A DNA stretch of 64,000 nt from Methanooceanicella nereidis (GTDB lineage Archaea; Halobacteriota; Methanocellia; Methanocellales; Methanocellaceae): assembly GCF_021023085.1 (NCBI RefSeq), contig NZ_PGCK01000005.1, forward strand, positions 1-64,000, given 5' to 3'. The notes beneath the pieces are model-generated. The model saw only the letters and a list, made by a program, of their open reading frames with translations. It was not told where the DNA came from and did no database searches. A program made the position numbers and the translations under genes. Of this stretch, positions 1,799 to 22,442 are shown one piece after another (position 1 is the stretch's first letter; every line of letters begins with the position of its first letter).

Positions 1799-2325
1799 CT
1801 ATTTTTCACCACAAAGGACACAAAGGTTACTAAGGTCCACCAGCTTAACCACAAAGGACACAAAGGCAACCAAGTAACACGGTTTTTCACCACAAAGGAC
1901 ACAAAGGCAACCAAGTAACACGGTTTTTCACCACAAAGGACACAAAGGCAACCAAGGAACACGGTTTTTCACCACAAAGGACACAAAGGCAACCAAGGTC
2001 CGCCAGCTTAACCACAAAGGACACAAAGGCAACCAAGTAACACGATATATTTAAAAAAGATGAACAAGCTCAAAAAAATTGTGTTACTTAGTTGCCCTCG
2101 TGTACTTTGTGGTTAAGCTAGTGAACCTTAGTTACCCTCGTGTACTTTGTGGTTAAGCTAGTGAACCTTAGTTACCCTCGTGTACTTTGTGGTTAAGCTA
2201 GTGAACCTTAGTTACCCTCGTGTACTTTGTGGTTAAGCTAGTGCACCTTAGTTACCCTCGTGTACTTTGTGGTTAAGCTAGTGAACCTTAGTTACCCTCG
2301 TGTACTTTGTGGTGAAAATTTTGGA
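1799..2325. repeat. family 2 giant inverted repeat with six tandem units per arm
   Basis: A 527-bp non-coding structure between nadE (+) and the DUF192 gene (-). The left arm holds six copies of a roughly 41-bp unit built on ACCACAAAGGACACAAAGG. The right arm holds six copies of a 40-bp unit containing CTCGTGTACTTTGTGGT, which is the imperfect reverse complement of the left unit. The arms flank a short AT-rich centre at about 2041-2090, bordered by GTAACAC and GTGTTAC. A transcript could fold into a hairpin of over 200 bp. The right-arm units are more uniform than the left-arm units, suggesting recent tandem amplification or gene conversion. Confidence 0.9.
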
Positions 2326-3856: not shown

Positions 3857-3872
3857 ATTTTTAGTAGTTTTA

Positions 3873-4408
3873 CCTGACGGATGGCAGGTAGATACAAACC
3901 TCACGAAAACACGGAAACACAAAAATTTTTTTATGATTTTTTAAGAGCTCAAAAGCACCAAAAACTTACTCACTAAACCACAAAGGCTCTAGTATCACCG
4001 TCAATGCACTAACGTCCCAAATGCTCAACTCAACGCACCAAATTCTCTAATACACTAACGCTAAAACAAATCCCGAACCTCTCAAAAGCACGAAAGTTTA
4101 ATAACCCGGTTTCCGTTCAACACGACTAAAGCATACCGGATATAATGATGATCAATAAGGCTTAGCACAAACCGCGATTTAAACTTTCGTGTTTTGGGGA
4201 AGTTCGGGCCTTGTTTTAGCGTTAGTGGATTAGTGATTTTCGTGCGTTGAGTTGAGCGTTAGTGACGTTTGAGCGTTGACGGTGATACTAGAGCCTTAGA
4301 GGTTTAGTGAGTGAACTCTTAGAGATTTCGTGCCCTTAAAAAAAATCATTAAAAAATTTTGTGTTTCCGTGTTTTCGTGAGGTTTGTATCTACCTGCCAT
4401 CCGTCAGG
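3873..4408. repeat. family 1 long palindromic element, copy 1
   Basis: A 536-bp element whose ends are a perfect 28-bp inverted repeat starting CCTGACGGATGGCAGGTAGA. Complementarity continues inward through almost the whole element, for example CACGAAAACACGGAAACAC pairing with the matching right arm and CACGAAAGTTTAA pairing with TTTAAACTTTCGTG. About 70 bases of non-palindromic core remain, containing GGTTTCCGTT and GGATATAATGATGAT. No ORF is visible. It lies between convergent genes. Two more copies occur at 19.07 and 21.79 kb. Confidence 0.93.
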
Positions 4409-4523
4409 CATAAGGCGAAGATTTTGATAAAGTAGCAGAACCTTAATTTAAAATAGATATCATAGGGTGGAAAAATCCCAATGCAATTATAACTTATAAC
4501 ACCCTATAATATCAATATTGTCA

Positions 4524-5665: not shown

Positions 5666-6100
5666 TTAAACATTAGTATCTATTACAACTTTTTCTTTTC
5701 CATCGACTTTTGCGGTTACAACTAGATGTATATCATTCATTGGTACATTTACATATTTATACCTGTAAACATCACCTACTGACATAACAGTCCCAATATT
5801 ACATGGATTCCCCAATCCACCGTTTTGATATTGAAGTTCATATAAAGAACCTGTCTCTGGCGATATTATTGTCAATTCACTTACTATTTGTGCACCATTT
5901 TTATCTGCAAAAGTAATGTCTAATACATCATTAGACATCTTTGTTATTGTAAATACAGGAATATTATTTTTACCAATATTATTTAATAGTCCAAGCGAAT
6001 AAGCCGCCACTAAAGCTGCTAAAATGACAACAATTGCAACTATAAGAATAATGCCAATAGTTTCTGATTCGCCTTTATCATTATTTTGAAAAAATAACGT
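5666..6100 (-). pseudogene. archaeal type IV pilin paralogue without a canonical start codon
   Basis: A second small pilin beside the intact one at 6181-6588. The frame reads NNDKGESETIGIILIVAIVV, a good match to the class III signal and hydrophobic helix of its neighbour (NDEAVSAVIGVILMVAITV). It ends in VVIDTNV, against VVIDATV in the neighbour. In-frame ATG, GTG or TTG codons are missing upstream of the helix; the first one (GTG at 6010) lies inside it. An AGGGG Shine-Dalgarno-like motif at 6108-6112 is followed in frame by ACG at 6100. Either translation starts at a non-standard codon or the start was lost by mutation. Apart from that the reading frame is intact. Confidence 0.65.
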
Positions 6101-6157
6101 ATTAAAACCCCTATGTATAATAATGTTAAAACTAAATAAAATTTATTACTATAATAA

Positions 6158-6180
6158 AAAAAAGAAGAGGATTAATCCCC
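6158..6180 (-). terminator. probable terminator of the major pilin gene
   Basis: Directly after the pilin stop codon the minus strand has GGGATTAATCC, a small palindrome, followed within two bases by a run of eight T. It also separates this gene from the paralogue downstream. Confidence 0.55.
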
Positions 6181-6588
6181 TTATACAGTTGCATCAATTA
6201 CTACTTGGCTATTTCCATCGACTGTAGCACTACCTACAACGTGATACTGAGCCGAGGAGGCTAATGTATACCTGTAAGTTTCACCGACAGTCATCGAAGT
6301 TGATGAAGGTACAGGAACTGCTGTTAAAGTAGTACCATCAGCTGTTAGTGTAAGAGAATTTACTGTCTGTGCTCCACCCATGTCTACAAAAGTAACATCT
6401 AAATAGGTAGTTGATCCACTTGCAACCCTCTTCATTGTGAAAGCGGGATTCTTCTTTGTACCTACGCCACCTGCCATTCCAAATACGAATGCTGCAATAA
6501 CTGCCGCTAAGATAACGGTGATCGCTACCATAAGGATAACACCGATGACGGCGGATACTGCCTCATCATTCTTCTTAAAGTTCCTCAT
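6181..6588 (-). CDS. archaeal type IV pilin
   Basis: A 135-aa pilin of the archaeal PF07790 type. The N-terminus is a class III signal: basic MRNFKKNDEAVSAVIG, then a helix of about 20 hydrophobic residues ending AAFVFG. Prepilin peptidase would cut just before the helix. The remaining ~95 residues are beta-rich and Thr/Ser-rich, the exposed globular part. A strong GGAGG Shine-Dalgarno (6599-6603) ten bases before the ATG suggests high expression. It is probably a structural subunit of a surface filament or adhesin. Upstream lies about 820 bp of AT-rich sequence without genes. Confidence 0.88.
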   Translation of the reverse strand: MRNFKKNDEAVSAVIGVILMVAITVILAAVIAAFVFGMAGGVGTKKNPAFTMKRVASGSTTYLDVTFVDMGGAQTVNSLTLTADGTTLTAVPVPSSTSMTVGETYRYTLASSAQYHVVGSATVDGNSQVVIDATV

Positions 6589-6603
6589 ATTAGTTTAACC
6601 TCC

Positions 6604-7300
6604 TAAACCATTCCACCCCACTTGTGAACCCACAAATGAGACACATATAAATATGCTAGATACTGTATTACTATCAATAGGTACTTAATCTTTTTGCTGT
6701 CAAAAACGCCATACACCAAAGTTATTTTGTAAAAATTGTACTGTATGAAATTTAGTAGATTTAATGTAAAAATAAAAAATGTTTACTAAAATTTTCGAAA
6801 ATATTTTCGAAAAATCATTTTATAAAAATAAATTGTCGAGTTTATTTACAAATATTTTTAAAAAATAATTTATTGAAATAAAATATGATTAATAAGTAAA
6901 AAACTAAATAAAAATTATAAAGCAAACATTATAAAATTGTAATTAAAAAAGTAAAAATACTTATGAATAATTACAATACAAAGATTTATAAGTAATTGAT
7001 TTTTAAATATGATTTTTACTAATATTTTGTATATTTTGTAAAATTTGTGTCAATAGGTTTTTCTATGCCCAAGTTTTTTCATGAGGGCCCCATCATTCTT
7101 GACCTTTACCATGTTTAATTAATAAGGTAGATATTAAATAATGCCCTACTTCAGAGTAAAGTAAAACACCAAAATATAAAATATCCACATCAAAATTACC
7201 TTATATACTATTTATATTATAAATATATAAAAAACTGATTCTGGTTCTTTCTACGAAAATTATGCGCCTTTCAAGTTATTTTCAATAAAAAATAGAATTG
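6604..7300. other. AT-rich non-coding region upstream of the pilin gene
   Basis: About 700 bp of strongly AT-rich sequence without a credible ORF, tRNA or ordered repeat. It includes the pilin promoter, whose TATA-like elements cannot be singled out in such AT-rich DNA. I see no iterated origin-recognition motif and no cdc6/orc1 gene nearby. Confidence 0.5.
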
Positions 7301-7301
7301 T

Positions 7302-7380
7302 GCAGTAATCCAGGATACCGTTTGATCAATATGATCATAGGTTTATTCATTTACCTATTACCTGCATCCTGAATTACCGC
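7302..7380 (-). terminator. stem-loop downstream of the pilin-like operon
   Basis: An inverted repeat GCAGTAATCCAGGAT (7302-7316) against ATCCTGAATTACCGC (7366-7380), with two mismatches. Smaller nested repeats lie in the loop (ATAGGT/ACCTAT and GATCA/TGATC). It sits 30-110 bp past the last gene of the operon and is a plausible 3' end or processing structure. Confidence 0.45.
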
Positions 7381-7411
7381 ATCGGACAGTCTATGTTAAT
7401 TTATATCAAGC

Positions 7412-8962
7412 TCAGCTTTGCATGCTTCCTGTCTTTGACGACAGGCCTACTTTTAATACACCCTCTGTTATGTAAAGGTATTTTATATCCTGGCCGGAAC
7501 GATATTTTATAAATACCCTTGACTCGTCAGGGTTAAACTTGAAATTATTATTGCCGGTTGGCCCTCCAGGCAGACCTGATATTTTCTTTTCCGCGATATC
7601 ATAGTCCGGCCCGTCATCCGGGTATTGTTTTGCCATCAGCCAGAGATAATGCTGTGTTATGTCGTGAAGCGTCTTAGACCCTCCCGGCATAATATCAGAA
7701 CTGTCATCATACCCTATCACCAAACCCGTATCAAAATTGGCCTGGTCCGTGCCCCATGTCACTGTCGGGTTCGTGCTATGATAATTAAGCACGTAAGACT
7801 GGTTAAGCATATCTATATACAGGCTGTCTTCCCTGAATTCCTGCCTTTGGTATTCGGTACAGTTTGCAAATACCTCTTCTATGCCGTTCGCCTTATCAAT
7901 ATACTTGAACTCGATGACGCCGTAGTTCTTGTTTTCATTTACCGGCACGCCAGCCTCGTCCTTTATTTTACCGTTAAGTCTCGTCACGATGATGTATAAC
8001 TGCGGATCGGGTTCTGCACCGTCAATATCGGGTACACAGTAAGTCAGGGTATAACAGTTACCGGGGTTCCTGCCAGTAAGGTTAAGGATAAAGACCTCTA
8101 TCGGTGTAGGATCGTCAGTATCCATGGCTTCTGTCGTGAAACCGTCTATTGCAAGTTTATTCTGTAACGGTATACCGGTCTTCAGCGAGACGTTCACGAT
8201 CTTTTTAGATGGGTCGGTCACGGCTATTGCGCTGGTACGTTCGTTGATATAGTCCGCCCATGCTGAATAGTAATCCGATTTAATGGTAATGTTAATAGAG
8301 TAGTTCTGAGGCACAGGGTTCATGCCCTTGATGCCCGGATAGATCGGAGTTATCACGCCGTCAGGCGAGCTCGCGTCAAGCATTACAGCGCCACCGCCGT
8401 TAACAGCAATGCTTGTATTGCCATCAATACGCGTTATGGGCAGCGTAAGCGTGACGCCATTATAGTTAAAGTCTGGAGGGGACCGCATTATGGTGCCGCC
8501 GTTAGGATATTTTACCCAGACACCTCCGCCCTGATATGCTATTTCGCCGTTATCACCCACATATTTTACAGTTCCCAGCGCACAGCGGTGGATCAGTTTT
8601 TGGTCCGCGCCATAAATAGCGATATAGCTATCATCTTCTGTGCCGTTCACGAAGACCGTTCCGTCACCGAACTCAAAAGGCGTCTCCTGGAATATGGATG
8701 TACTGAACCTTGCTTTGCTCATCCTGGAGTCCCCTACGGTAAAAGCCTGCTCAACTGTATTGAACTGGGCAGTTTCTTTACTGTCAGGGATCACATAAGC
8801 TCCGGAAAGTAATATAATCGATATTCCCAAAACCACTATTCCCATGAGGATCAGGTAACCGAATATTTCAGAGACCGCATCATCCCTTATTATCATACTA
8901 TCGTGCCCGTTTTTAGCCGATCTTAGATCATTCACCAACATAGATACTGTCCCCTTTGTCAT
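7412..8962 (-). CDS. pilin-like surface protein, DUF7289 type
   Basis: A 516-aa protein, last in the six-gene pilin-like operon. After a short cytosolic N-terminus, IIRDDAVSEIFGYLILMGIV gives a class III-like signal and a single transmembrane helix. A long extracellular beta-rich region with many N-glycosylation sequons follows. The AVSExxGYxL pattern is that of the DUF7289 family, known in haloarchaea from similar clusters; this name is recalled, not searched. Its ATG overlaps the stop of the preceding gene (ATGA), so the two are translationally coupled. It probably forms part of a surface filament or secretion-like complex as a large minor subunit. Confidence 0.75.
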   Translation of the reverse strand: MTKGTVSMLVNDLRSAKNGHDSMIIRDDAVSEIFGYLILMGIVVLGISIILLSGAYVIPDSKETAQFNTVEQAFTVGDSRMSKARFSTSIFQETPFEFGDGTVFVNGTEDDSYIAIYGADQKLIHRCALGTVKYVGDNGEIAYQGGGVWVKYPNGGTIMRSPPDFNYNGVTLTLPITRIDGNTSIAVNGGGAVMLDASSPDGVITPIYPGIKGMNPVPQNYSINITIKSDYYSAWADYINERTSAIAVTDPSKKIVNVSLKTGIPLQNKLAIDGFTTEAMDTDDPTPIEVFILNLTGRNPGNCYTLTYCVPDIDGAEPDPQLYIIVTRLNGKIKDEAGVPVNENKNYGVIEFKYIDKANGIEEVFANCTEYQRQEFREDSLYIDMLNQSYVLNYHSTNPTVTWGTDQANFDTGLVIGYDDSSDIMPGGSKTLHDITQHYLWLMAKQYPDDGPDYDIAEKKISGLPGGPTGNNNFKFNPDESRVFIKYRSGQDIKYLYITEGVLKVGLSSKTGSMQS

Positions 8963-9747
8963 TTTGCTGTTATCGTTACATATGAGGGCATCCAGCAGAA
9001 CTTAATGCCCGAAGTATAATTATTGCTAAGGACGACGACACCGCCGGTATTGCTCAACTCATTGAAGTACAATTCGTCCTGGAAGAACCTGCTAAGATAA
9101 TTAGTATAATCACCGCTTAGATGTACGTCTATCCGCTTAACGTTATCATAGTAGCTTGGCATAGGGTAACTGACATACTGAGAAAGTTTTGAGTAGTAAG
9201 GCGTCGAGATCGATATTCTAGTCAGGCCGTTGCCGCTTATGGCCACGTTGCTGTTGTAAAACTTTATGACCGGTACGACGAACATGTTTGAGCTATTATA
9301 GATCTCAGGGTTCTTTACGGCATATGTATAATCACCGTTTTTCCTGCAAACTCCGCCCAGCAGATATGCTACACCCTGGTCATTTATAGAATATTCCATA
9401 GCTGACAATGTCGTGCTATTATTGCCCATTAAATTGTTACCTTCATGGTCGCTATAGCAAAATATGTTTATATAGCCGTCCTCACGTATGCCAAGGGAGC
9501 CGCCGTGTAACTTTAGCTCTGCGGACTGAAATGTCGACTCCAGCATTGCGACCTTATTGCCTTCGGAGGCCATTATGTAAAAGCCTTCTTCCATATTCTG
9601 AAGGTGGCTCCTGTCCAGTTCCTGGGTGAAGGCAGGATATCCTATTAACAAGATTATAGATATCGATGTGACAAGTATAAAGGTCACTAATATGTAGCCC
9701 ATAGATTCGGATACCGCTTTATCGGAGCTTAACAAAGAACGATACAT
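8959..9747 (-). CDS. pilin-like surface protein, DUF7289 type, smaller paralogue
   Basis: A 262-aa protein with SSDKAVSESMGYILVTFILV at the N-terminus, the same AVSExxGY signal-helix as the downstream 516-aa protein. The two are likely paralogues with different extracellular lengths. The body is beta-rich with sequons such as NNST and NYT. A GGAGG motif about ten bases upstream supports the ATG at 9747. It overlaps the next gene by four bases. It is probably an accessory pilin-like subunit of the same complex. Confidence 0.72.
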   Translation of the reverse strand: MYRSLLSSDKAVSESMGYILVTFILVTSISIILLIGYPAFTQELDRSHLQNMEEGFYIMASEGNKVAMLESTFQSAELKLHGGSLGIREDGYINIFCYSDHEGNNLMGNNSTTLSAMEYSINDQGVAYLLGGVCRKNGDYTYAVKNPEIYNSSNMFVVPVIKFYNSNVAISGNGLTRISISTPYYSKLSQYVSYPMPSYYDNVKRIDVHLSGDYTNYLSRFFQDELYFNELSNTGGVVVLSNNYTSGIKFCWMPSYVTITAK

Positions 9748-9751
9748 ATGA

Positions 9752-10252
9752 TCAATCCTCCAGGTCTATTACTATCGTGCTACCATTGTAATAGATATGC
9801 CCTGGCGCGTCCGAGCTATAGAAGAAAGTCTCTTCCACCGGCACCACGCTGCTAAAGGATGCTGCTGATGTCACGCCGGAATTTGCTTCATAGGTAATGA
9901 TAACGTCTCCGCTCCTTGTAGCGGCGTCATAGGTAACGTTCACAATGTATTGCTTTCCTTTTACCAGTTTCGGCAATTCAAAATACAGGCCATATCCTGT
10001 CGCTGTCGTGTTCGTGTGTTCATCGGTATAGCCATTCATATATATCTCGTTGGAGACGCAGGTTATCCTTCCCGCAAAGTCATTAGAGATGATGTCGAAC
10101 TCTTCCTTCAGGACAAGCCTGTCACTGGTGCTTATAACAGAATTTAATGTCATAAGCAGGATCGTCAGGAGTACGGACATGATGATGAGGGTGAAAATAT
10201 ATTCGACCACCACGTTGACTCCCGTTTCATCCTTCAAAAAATTTTTACCCAT
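9752..10252 (-). CDS. pilin-like membrane-anchored protein, DUF7266-like
   Basis: A 166-aa protein beginning MGKNFLKDETGVNVVVEYIF, followed by a hydrophobic helix TLIIMSVLLTILLM and an extracellular beta-rich domain. The arrangement resembles the DUF7266-like members of archaeal pilin clusters. The start chosen is the ATG at 10252, with GGAG nine bases upstream. An in-frame TTG at 10282 would overlap the previous gene and give ten extra residues without a signal-like character. It is the fourth gene of the operon. Confidence 0.68.
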   Translation of the reverse strand: MGKNFLKDETGVNVVVEYIFTLIIMSVLLTILLMTLNSVISTSDRLVLKEEFDIISNDFAGRITCVSNEIYMNGYTDEHTNTTATGYGLYFELPKLVKGKQYIVNVTYDAATRSGDVIITYEANSGVTSAASFSSVVPVEETFFYSSDAPGHIYYNGSTIVIDLED

Positions 10253-10272
10253 AGCAGCTCGCTCCTGTGGAT

Positions 10273-11499
10273 CTATGGCCAATCGCCGGGATTACCCCGT
10301 ACGTGTATGATGACCTCTCGCTCGTAAAGCGGCCTGTTCCCGGGTGTCCCGCAAATGTTACACGTTCCGGATATTCTCATGGTCAGGTTCGCAAAGTAGG
10401 GATAGTCATTATCAAGACATTGTATACGTACATTGATGTTTTTATTATAATTGGTACCGCTGATCAGGGCCTGAGTGAAAGAGCCGCTATCATCCGACGT
10501 TGCGAAAGCCGTGTTATTGGAATCGGGATTTAAGGTTATATCCACCTTGAAATTGCTGAAGTTGTATAATCCGTTTACGTAAATATCGTAGCTGATCTTA
10601 ACGAAATCAGCCCTCAGGTTACCGCCGCCGGTAGCATAGATCTTCTCATTCTCCGCATATGTTTTTGTATAGGTCGTATTGCCCACAACATGACTGCAGG
10701 CGGATGGTATCGGGGCGCAAAATATGTTAATGTCGTTAGATCTGTTACCAGCCCCGATCGTCGCATATATCGTATCGGTGCCTGTTTGTGCACTAACATA
10801 TTTTAACGTAGCCTTGCCGGTAGAATCGGTAGTGACGACAGTTACGGCCGTACCCGAGAGATCCCTGAATTCTGACCCCGCAAGAGTTTTATGCATAGTC
10901 ACATCGACGTTTGCCTGTGCCACAGGGGTTGAACTGTTACTGAAAACTTCAACCGTCAAAAGTACGTAATCCATAGGCGTTAGCCCTACGGTCACGTTAT
11001 ATTTCGAAGGTATAATGTTTATCTTATAGCCGCTGGAAGTCCCGCCGGGGGTCGTTCCCGAAGATAGAGGGTTACCCGTAAATATCTTATAAGTTAAATT
11101 AGAGTTCCTTCCGATGATAGATAATTGCGATTCGGTCTCTGTGACGGCGAGCGGATCGCTGATAGGGATACGGTATGGCGTACTCGTAATGGTGACCTGT
11201 TTTGATTTTATTCCATACAGGCCGTTAAGTGCTTTCTCATAGTCGTCCGTATATTTGTCAAACCTGCTGCTGTCTGCGTCGCCTTTAGTATAATTATAAG
11301 CATAGGATATTTCTTTAGCCGTAGCCTGTTTAAGAGACAGGGCATCGTACCTTGACTGGTCCATCATGCCTACATATGCCATATTGCTCGAAAATATCAC
11401 GTTATTCAGCATGAGCGTGATCGCGATTATGGCGAAAGCTAGTATGAATGCGCTTGTCAGCAGGAACTGGCCGGAATCATCCCTAATGATCTTTGACAC
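10273..11499 (-). CDS. pilin-like surface protein with Ig-like domain, DUF7261 type
   Basis: A 408-aa protein beginning MSKIIRDDSGQFLLTSAFIL. The DSGQ tetrad followed by a helix is the DUF7261-type signature. The middle (about residues 150-270) looks like an Ig-like repeat of the big_1 kind: VGLTPMDYVLLTVEVF, then DSTGKATLKYVSAQTGTDTI. This kind of domain is common in adhesins. Several Asn-X-Ser/Thr sequons are present. The GTG start at 11499 directly abuts the upstream TAG stop, implying reinitiation. It probably projects from the cell surface as part of the filament machinery. Confidence 0.72.
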   Translation of the reverse strand: MSKIIRDDSGQFLLTSAFILAFAIIAITLMLNNVIFSSNMAYVGMMDQSRYDALSLKQATAKEISYAYNYTKGDADSSRFDKYTDDYEKALNGLYGIKSKQVTITSTPYRIPISDPLAVTETESQLSIIGRNSNLTYKIFTGNPLSSGTTPGGTSSGYKINIIPSKYNVTVGLTPMDYVLLTVEVFSNSSTPVAQANVDVTMHKTLAGSEFRDLSGTAVTVVTTDSTGKATLKYVSAQTGTDTIYATIGAGNRSNDINIFCAPIPSACSHVVGNTTYTKTYAENEKIYATGGGNLRADFVKISYDIYVNGLYNFSNFKVDITLNPDSNNTAFATSDDSGSFTQALISGTNYNKNINVRIQCLDNDYPYFANLTMRISGTCNICGTPGNRPLYEREVIIHVRGNPGDWP

Positions 11500-12153
11500 C
11501 TACATCACCCACATCGTCAGTTTTACTTCAGCCACGTTATGCAGCGGCGTATCCGGACTTATATCCGGCAATATGAAGCTATTATCATAATAGCCGTCGA
11601 CGGGTATGTCTTTCCCGGTCCCGTAAACGTCATCGTGCAGTACTATGATCCTTGAGACGGTCACGCAGTTTTCAGACGGGTCGCCGTTCCATATCATTTT
11701 TGCACACCTGACACGATTCTCCATGTCAGGATAAGCGACCTCTACGTTAAACGCCACGCCGCGATCTATCAAAGCGTAACTTAAAGCGTTCCCTAAAGCG
11801 GTATTCAGTATCGTGGTGTTGTTCACATAAGAAAGACTGACGTACGTGGTGTTGTTCCATGCGTACCAGTCATAATTATTAACCAGGACCCATTCTTTGA
11901 TGCTCTGCTTTAATAACGACGTCGCGTTCAGATCGGTAGTGTTCATCGTATACGTCTCATCTAACGTCGTAAGTATATCCTGGCCCATGTTTTGAAGCTC
12001 TAATTTAATATGCTGGTTAGTGAATGAAGATGTAAGAGGTGTCACTGAAGTCGTCTGTACGACTAACGCAAGCACTGACAGCATGATCATAGCTGCTCCC
12101 AGCCCTTCGATAGTCTGCATTTGCCCCCTGTCGTCACGTCTTAATGAAGCCAT
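11500..12153 (-). CDS. pilin-like membrane-anchored protein, DUF7288 type
   Basis: A 217-aa protein with RRDDRGQMQTIEGLGAAMIM near the start, leading into a transmembrane helix and an extracellular region. The RGQxxTxEG pattern is that of the DUF7288 family, a usual partner of DUF7287 and DUF7289 in archaeal pilin operons. The ATG at 12153 overlaps the previous stop codon (TAATG), showing tight coupling. A TTG two codons upstream is less likely. Confidence 0.72.
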   Translation of the reverse strand: MASLRRDDRGQMQTIEGLGAAMIMLSVLALVVQTTSVTPLTSSFTNQHIKLELQNMGQDILTTLDETYTMNTTDLNATSLLKQSIKEWVLVNNYDWYAWNNTTYVSLSYVNNTTILNTALGNALSYALIDRGVAFNVEVAYPDMENRVRCAKMIWNGDPSENCVTVSRIIVLHDDVYGTGKDIPVDGYYDNSFILPDISPDTPLHNVAEVKLTMWVM

Positions 12154-12665
12154 TACCAAACCCTCACGGTCAATATTGCCATTTTACCCGGATAATTAGC
12201 CGGATTGGAGTCCCGCATATAAACGAAACGCTTGCTCTGGCCGACATTTTCATTTCCCGGGGTTATCCCGCCATTGATCTTGTACTCTGTGCCGTCCTCA
12301 TCCTCAACTATGATCTGCAGGTTATGGATCTTACCATTAATATCCATACCCAGTGATCTCATTAGATTATTATAGTCAGCCGGGCTGGAAGGGCTCTCTA
12401 TGCCGGATTTTAAATTATTGAAAACGTTAAGATCGACGATCCCCGGCATTATCGTACCCGAATTGTTTTTTGCCAGTATCGTCTCTACCAGTGTCATTCC
12501 CACCCTGTCGGCGGTCATTGTCAACTCATCGGAGTTTGACTGGAAAGGCGTGAACATTCCCGGTATGAATGCGAATACAAAGATAAACGCGATCAAGAAG
12601 ATGGTTATCCCTGTAATGAAATCCAGGCCTGTTTGAGCAGTATTATCGCGAATTAGTCTCCTCAT
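12153..12665 (-). CDS. pilin-like protein, DUF7287 type, first gene of the operon
   Basis: A 170-aa protein starting MRRLIRDNTAQTGLDFITGI, then a hydrophobic segment IFVFAFIPGMFTPF. The QTxLDFxxG signal followed by FAFIPGMFxPF is diagnostic of DUF7287, which opens equivalent clusters in haloarchaea. The ATG at 12665 has GGAAGGT upstream; a TTG at 12683 is a weaker alternative. It starts a six-gene minus-strand operon ending at 7412, with every junction overlapping or within about 20 bp. The promoter must lie in the AT-rich gap up to 12.97 kb. Confidence 0.75.
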   Translation of the reverse strand: MRRLIRDNTAQTGLDFITGITIFLIAFIFVFAFIPGMFTPFQSNSDELTMTADRVGMTLVETILAKNNSGTIMPGIVDLNVFNNLKSGIESPSSPADYNNLMRSLGMDINGKIHNLQIIVEDEDGTEYKINGGITPGNENVGQSKRFVYMRDSNPANYPGKMAILTVRVW

Positions 12666-12944
12666 AGTGCCAGTACCTTCCAAATAGGTATCGATTGCTT
12701 TATTATTTTAAGCAGAAGTCTTATAATAAGCTATCGCTGGAAATTTCGATTTTAAATATGTCTTTTTACATAATATTCAAATATAACTTTTCTATGTATA
12801 AAATATTGAATAATAAGCATTAATTATTTAAACGAAAGAAAAAGACGATTTTTAATGTTACTTGATAATAAGAATACGTTTTGAACGTTTAAAAACCATA
12901 AAGAACTTAATTATTAGTTAGATTAATCTATAATTGAAGTTTAG

Positions 12945-19067: not shown

Positions 19068-19595
19068 TTTCGGATGGCAGGTAGATACTAATTTCACAGA
19101 ACCACAAAAATACTAAAATTTTTATATGATTTTTTAAGGTCTCAAAAGCACCAAAAAACATACTCACGAAACCTCTAAGGCTCTATCAGCACCGTCAACG
19201 CACTAACATCCCAAATGCCCGACTCAACGCACTAAAATCTCAAATTCTCTAACGCTAAAACAAGGCCCGAACATCTCCAAACCACGAAAGCTCAATAGCT
19301 CGGTTTCCGTTTAAATCGACTAAAAAATACAGGATATAATAATGATCAATAAGGTGCAAAACAAACCGGGATTTAAACTTTCGTGCTTTGGAGAGGTTCG
19401 GGGTTTGTTTTAGCGTTAGTGGATTTGTGCACTTTGGGCATTGAGTCGGGCATTTGGGATGTTAGTGCGTTGACGGTGCTGATAGAGCCTTAGAGGTTTC
19501 GTGAGTAAATTCTTAGAGCTTTCGTGCTCTTAAAATCTGAAAAAATTTTGTGTTTCTGTGTTTCTGTGAAATTAGTATCTACCTGCGATCCGAAA
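19068..19595. repeat. family 1 long palindromic element, copy 2
   Basis: A 528-bp inverted repeat with ends starting TTTCGGATGGCAGGTAGATA and one mismatch between the terminal arms. The arms are complementary almost throughout. The non-palindromic core again carries CGGTTTCCGTT and GGATATAATAATGATCAATA. It lies between larC (+) and the YqjD/YqjE-like trio (-), a convergent junction. No ORF is visible. Confidence 0.92.
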
Positions 19596-21618: not shown

Positions 21619-21784
21619 TGTATCACGGGTAGTGTATGAATGAGAAGATAATTATTTAATGGTTTTGGAAAAATAGCGCCGTTCCTCGCTTAAAAATGAA
21701 TACGTTAATGGCCTTTATGACAGGATCAATAACGGAATTTATTATATACAGTTTTGAGAGACTTTTTCAGGTCATTCCTTTTGT

Positions 21785-22294
21785 ATGGCAGGTAGACACT
21801 AATTTCACAGAACCACAAAAACACAAAATTTTTTTAGATTTTAAGGGCACGAAAGCTCTAAGATGTTTTTACTCACCAAACCTCTAAGGCTCTAATTTCA
21901 CCATCAAAGCACTAACTGCTCAAACGCACGGCTCAACGCACTAAGAACACGAATCCTCCAACACTAAGACAAGACACTAATCTCCTCTAAACCACGAAAG
22001 TTTAATGGCACGGTTTCCGTTTAACTGGATGAGGCATACAGGATATAATGATGATACGGTGCAACACCAACCGTGGTTTAAACTTTTGTGTTTTAGTGTT
22101 TTAGAGCCTTATTTTAGTGTTAGAGGCTTTGAGCACTTTGCGCGTTAAGTCGAGCGTTTGAGCAGTTAGAGCTTTGATGGTGAAATTAGAGCCTTAGAGG
22201 TTTGGTGAGTGAATTTTTTTTGTGCCTTAGAGATCTTAAATATTAAAAAATTTAGTGATTTTGTGTTTTCGTGAAATTAGTGTCTACCTGCCAT
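21785..22294. repeat. family 1 long palindromic element, copy 3
   Basis: A 510-bp inverted repeat with perfect terminal arms starting ATGGCAGGTAGACACTAATT. The arms carry several differences from copies 1 and 2, but most changes are matched on the opposite arm, so base pairing is kept. The core has CGGTTTCCGTT and GGATATAATGATGAT. Unlike the other copies it sits between divergent genes. Confidence 0.9.
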
Positions 22295-22442
22295 CCGAAA
22301 GAAACAAAAAAGGCTAATATCATAATAAACCTGGATCCAATACGCCGAAAACCCAATAAAATGTCCTTTATGCCTCATAAGAAAATTTAATAAGGATTTA
22401 AGGATATAGCATACCCTATCGCGATTAGAAGGTCGGGGGGCT

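Follow-up and report, generated by a model that had tools for sequence, protein, structure and literature searches.

Giant palindromes of Methanooceanicella nereidis and their GxxExxY-bearing relatives as possible hairpin mobile elements

Results

Palindromes of the window and their copies in the genome

The window, i.e., the whole stretch of 64,000 nucleotides analysed here (positions 1 to 64,000 of contig NZ_PGCK01000005.1), contains three giant palindromes, hereafter family 1, with near-perfect inverted arms at each of the three places reported in the earlier note (Table 1). The shared terminal repeat GGATGGCAGGTAGA was verified at their termini. Each palindrome measures approximately 520 bp in total with arms of approximately 240 bp, and copy 1, folded as single-stranded DNA, forms a single hairpin with a folding energy of -199 kcal/mol (z = -26.4), which none of 100 shuffled sequences equalled. 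The core sequences CGGTTTCCGTT and GGATATAATGATGAT, described earlier as conserved, are present in the window but mark a minority subfamily, a different core being found in most of the 64 aligned copies of the genome. A fourth palindrome (1803-2318), of a second type, has an arm that, along 245 bp, shares 91% identity with an arm of the gene-bearing locus L105 (G000:C12:110745) in the same genome and is, as judged from its sequence, a gene-less relative of that GxxExxY element (see below). Elsewhere in the window, a run of minus-strand open reading frames (ORFs) at 5666-12683 was noted in which the protein starts resemble, by eye, those of archaeal pilin-type or membrane-anchored secreted proteins.

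Table 1. Palindromes of the window and their arms (window coordinates)
Feature	Position	Strand	Arm complementarity	Remarks
Palindrome copy 1, gene-less	3868..4413	.	83-95%	core ~4109-4175; full-length relatives genome-wide
Copy 1 inner arms	3937-4101/4179-4343		83%	
Copy 1 outer arms	3868-3930/4351-4413		95%	
Palindrome copy 2, gene-less	19068..19595	.	87-89%	82% identity to copy 1
Copy 2 inner arms	19154-19295/19373-19514		87%	
Copy 2 outer arms	19068-19123/19540-19595		89%	
Palindrome copy 3, gene-less	21775..22304	.	85%	terminal-repeat sites 21783 and 22280
Copy 3 inner arms	21868-21980/22101-22213		85%	
Copy 3 outer arms	21775-21841/22238-22304		85%	
Second palindrome type, gene-less	1803..2318	.		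inverted arms of tandem ACCACAAAGGACACAAAGG-like units; ends TTCACCAC...GTGGTGAA

A genome-wide search revealed that these palindromes are not unique to the window. Thus, 145 terminal-repeat sites with no more than 2 mismatches were located, and approximately 73 palindromes, a few of them partial, were counted from arm pairs in the 1.2 Mb around these sites. Pairing by terminal repeats gave 69 palindromes, of which five were outside the usual length; nearly all copies measured 512-534 bp. The mean identity of the aligned copies was 82% and that of the best pair 99% (n = 64). None of these 64 copies overlapped an ORF of at least 100 amino acids by more than 60 bases, so that all were intergenic, and 24 of 62 copies were situated between convergent ORFs compared with 179 of 827 in the background, both results being based on ORFs rather than curated genes. 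In 39 of the 64 copies, extra flanking sequence was shared, extending for approximately 85-136 bases on the left side and, in all but one copy, for 96-116 on the right side, and forming a longer unit of approximately 735 bp beyond which the sequences were unrelated. The ends of this unit, in many cases of the TTCACCAC ... GTGGTGAA type, are of the same kind as those of the 1803-2318 palindrome; the outer shared flanks are absent from the window copies. Copies of family 1 were not found at an E-value of 0.001 in two of three relatives from the same family of organisms.

Incomplete copies were also seen. At L047:14697, L052:7424, L064:9205 and L099:14289, a lone terminal repeat was present in a short hairpin-like context with no second arm; these sites are perhaps deletion remnants. 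At L050:12067-12308, an unpaired family-1 arm adjoins a gene for a UvrD-type helicase with a PDDEXK_1 domain.

GxxExxY genes between the arms

The statement in the earlier note that the palindromes encode nothing was accurate for the three window copies but not for the family, since three other copies, each of approximately 1005 bp, carry a gene between their arms. The ORF in these loops encodes a GxxExxY protein (TIGR04256/PDDEXK_3; PF13366) and passes curated cut-offs (123.7 bits versus 35 for TIGR04256 and 118.5 versus 22 for PF13366), although one of the three reading frames is shortened and another is broken by a stop. The protein retains the conserved D and E-x-K typical of PD-(D/E)XK nucleases. 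A profile search of the PDB gave one match only, which was at chance level, and a search of a defence library gave none. The three units of approximately 1005 bp were 88-93% identical over their full length while their flanks were unrelated, and thus arms and gene have spread together. No coding member was found with exactly the core of the window type.

The association of GxxExxY genes with inverted arms was not limited to this genome. In the four genomes of the same family of organisms, GxxExxY genes mostly have inverted arms on either side, and across the phylum 50 of 394 genomes gave a GxxExxY match above cut-off. Spanning arms that scored 30 bits or more were present at 34 of 41 archaeal GxxExxY genes (i.e., those sampled with approximately 6 kb of flank) as opposed to 4 of 185 control ORFs taken from these stretches (Mann-Whitney p = 2e-21, a value that is optimistic owing to related copies). 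The remaining 7 of 41 genes scored below 30 bits, and two of these (L166 and L183), in genomes that also hold positive ones, had no clear arms. Inverted arrays of the arm unit described below, correctly oriented to either side of the gene, were noted at 31 of 41 GxxExxY genes compared with 1 of 196 controls. The sequences of the arms vary by lineage (e.g., CCACAGAGG, CCGCAGAG, CGCCAAGA, CCGCGAATC and CCACGGAAT) while the type of unit is kept. In G266, a genome from another archaeal family with five listed GxxExxY genes, one GxxExxY arm gave 108 matches, and relatives of this genome contain gene-less palindromes of approximately 366 bp with that type of arm (at L235 and L236); single arms are also common there. 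At L234:1479-2853, arms of 170 bp that are 96% alike surround an ORF of a kind other than GxxExxY, whose product has several hydrophobic stretches.

Among 72,556 plasmid records, 8 carried the GxxExxY gene. Arms were evident at GxxExxY, by eye and partly by search, in plasmid-collection records of Bacteroides, Sphingomonas, Bernardetia and Gemmatirosa, and a shorter inverted repeat was seen in that of Treponema, whereas no clear arms were seen in those of Prevotella and Persicobacter. By an automatic motif count, only 2 of these 7 bacterial cases have the units to either side of the gene. Phage records and viral contigs gave no match with the queries and limits used.

Conservation of arm units

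The arms consist of inverted arrays of a CNCNRA-type unit, which is CWCNAA in the family-1 consensus. Among family-1 copies, positions 1, 3, 5 and 6 of CWCNAA were more than 99% conserved compared with 80% for position 2 and 61% for position 4. Between pairs of copies more than 95% identical, differences per site were 0.176 at N, 0.005 at the C and A sites and 0.040 at other sites, a contrast that may be helped somewhat by the choice of units according to the consensus motif. The same pattern of unit conservation was noted in related palindromes of genome G002. Variation of the N position could result from copying between units or from lack of constraint.

Changes in one arm had been described in the earlier note as often matched on the opposite arm, and a covariance analysis had been suggested. 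This matching was not borne out, agreement between the arms of one copy being at the level of chance. Thus, identity of the right arm was 81.8% to its own left arm and 81.4% to those of different copies, the own arm showed an even spread of ranks among all arms, and agreement with the own arm at variable columns was observed 1600 times as against 1667 expected. Selection for pairing within copies is therefore unsupported, and the compensatory changes between paired arms that mark a structured RNA were not found in the aligned family copies. Because the C and A positions are conserved, position 4 is nearly free and the mirror arm lacks compensation, the sequences suggest that the unit is recognised as DNA and not as an RNA hairpin.

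Insertion traces

No consistent direct repeat was found around 30 copies, of which 1 had a repeat of at least 9 bp compared with 4.7% of controls, the exact ends of the copies being uncertain. Such a lack would fit a route in which no DDE transposase takes part, although it may simply reflect the uncertain ends. For one GxxExxY unit of G266 (L172), an empty site was not found in eight genomes of its genus. The flanks of this unit were apart in relatives, i.e., at approximately 82 kb and 1539 kb in G212, approximately 3.9 kb apart in G163 and on different contigs in G315 and G393, and at the counterpart locus in G163 (L189) a GxxExxY unit is present whose arms are different. Since the L172 flanks are not contiguous in these four genomes, the palindromes may mark rearrangement breakpoints.

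Discussion

Three ideas had been put forward for these palindromes in the earlier note, namely mobile hairpin elements, origins of long double-stranded RNA and chromosome-structure signals. The first was the best supported, as indicated by the dispersal of similar copies, their unrelated flanks and the spread of gene-bearing units. With moderate confidence, family 1 is interpreted as a hairpin mobile element of which the coding members carry GxxExxY and the window copies are gene-less, MITE-like members. Each copy consists of two long inverted arms, in which CWCNAA-type units abound, around a short loop. In coding members the loop contains the gene for the GxxExxY (PDDEXK_3) nuclease, and gene-less copies outnumber coding ones, as MITEs outnumber their parents. 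We infer that GxxExxY moves the palindromes. Thus, the nuclease would recognise either the units of the arms or the hairpin once extruded, and would cut DNA, the break would be repaired by copying of the element, and gene-less copies would be moved in trans.

A broader proposal is offered more tentatively, namely that GxxExxY proteins may be the mobility enzymes of hairpin elements widespread in archaea and bacteria, reading inverted CNCNRA-type arrays and spreading both their own element and the commoner gene-less palindromes with no target duplication. GxxExxY genes, to which no role is ascribed, are annotated in many genomes. The proposal, if true, would join an orphan protein family and scattered degenerate inverted repeats under one idea and would enlarge the range of mobile elements by a class linked to a nuclease. 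Literature on GxxExxY, mostly from non-subscription sources, yielded almost nothing, the name of the family being mentioned with no link to palindromes, and example repeat sequences likewise led to no pertinent paper.

The chief alternative explanation is a selfish passenger role for GxxExxY, which would be inserted or kept in the loops of palindromes that spread otherwise, i.e., by recombination, by template switching during replication or by another enzyme. This explanation, which we consider rather unlikely, is in keeping with the use of loops by IS256-family copies, with the occurrence of GxxExxY among many different arm sequences and with the gene-less state of most palindromes. Random palindromes, however, would not be expected to share one type of unit at GxxExxY arms across families and in bacteria, and the joint spread of arms and gene in the M. 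nereidis genome also speaks against this explanation.

The IS256-family copies also bear on an improbable explanation, that an insertion sequence with a DDE transposase, such as IS256, gave rise to the palindromes, which would then be ordinary MITEs whose terminal repeats are very long. The strongest control match in the test for spanning arms was an IS256-family transposase gene in a palindrome loop of G002 (L201 and L202), where the arms are like those of family 1, and in M. nereidis, at two contig ends (C13:1-102 and C21:4617-4718), the end of a transposase sequence abuts family-1 arms. From this abutment, IS256 at first appeared likely as the parent, and the dispersal of uniform copies would also fit a MITE origin. 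This candidate was set aside since two IS256 copies, identical over 1284 bp, have ends of their own (GGCTCTGTCCC...GGGACACTGCC) and one of them has AAAATGCG on both sides within the loop, indicating secondary insertion into loops; the lack of a consistent target duplication at the palindromes is a further point against a DDE transposase. IS256 may have a preference for palindrome loops, and its presence there means that residence in a loop is not by itself proof of a working partnership.

Selection of the palindromes as host signals, either bidirectional terminators or chromosome-structure sites, appears still less probable. Strong hairpins, conserved unit positions, the intergenic location of all 64 aligned copies and their excess between convergent ORFs are as such signals would predict, but a tolerated mobile element would likewise insert outside genes, and neither the three coding copies and large composite units nor the absence of copies (at the E-value given above) from two of three relatives is readily explained by a host function. 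A source of long double-stranded RNA, to which the strong hairpin potential would be suited, is very improbable given the lack of compensatory change between the arms of one copy and the lack of an Rfam match at the palindromes.

The interpretation of family 1 as a hairpin mobile element can be compared with several known systems. Homing endonuclease genes offer one likeness, namely a nuclease gene through which, by a break and subsequent copying, the host element could be spread. The present palindromes differ in having neither intron nor intein, in lacking a defined cut site and in their many gene-less copies. IS256-family insertion sequences share the loops of these palindromes but are insertions with their own ends and not palindrome parents. 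REP/REPIN sequences with their RAYT proteins also pair dispersed palindromic DNA with a DNA-cutting protein encoded by the genome, a likeness in manner of working (PMC2817692, PMC3116915). REPs, however, are palindromes of 20-40 bp with GTAG-type tags (GTAG or CGTC for REP/REPIN) and a tyrosine (HUH) enzyme (PMC2817692, PMC3116915), as opposed to approximately 520 bp, different termini and a protein of a different fold family in the present case.

The closest resemblance is to prokaryotic MITEs (PMC10969869), which are likewise short, dispersed and intergenic with inverted termini and a gene-less majority accompanied by few coding relatives. Length alone, on which the earlier note had set the palindromes apart from MITEs, does not exclude them, and the window copies are short dispersed elements that end in inverted repeats and lack a transposase gene. 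A parent with the same ends and a transposase was not among the sequences compared, the IS256 copies in loops having other ends and their own duplication. In contrast with the MITEs so described, arms span nearly the whole element as arrays of CNCNRA-type units, no target duplication was seen, and coding members carry a PD-(D/E)XK-type protein rather than a DDE transposase. Family 1 can be placed among MITE-like inverted-repeat elements, and the recurrence of GxxExxY between inverted repeats of this kind in other archaea and some bacteria suggests a class of mobile element that has been little described.
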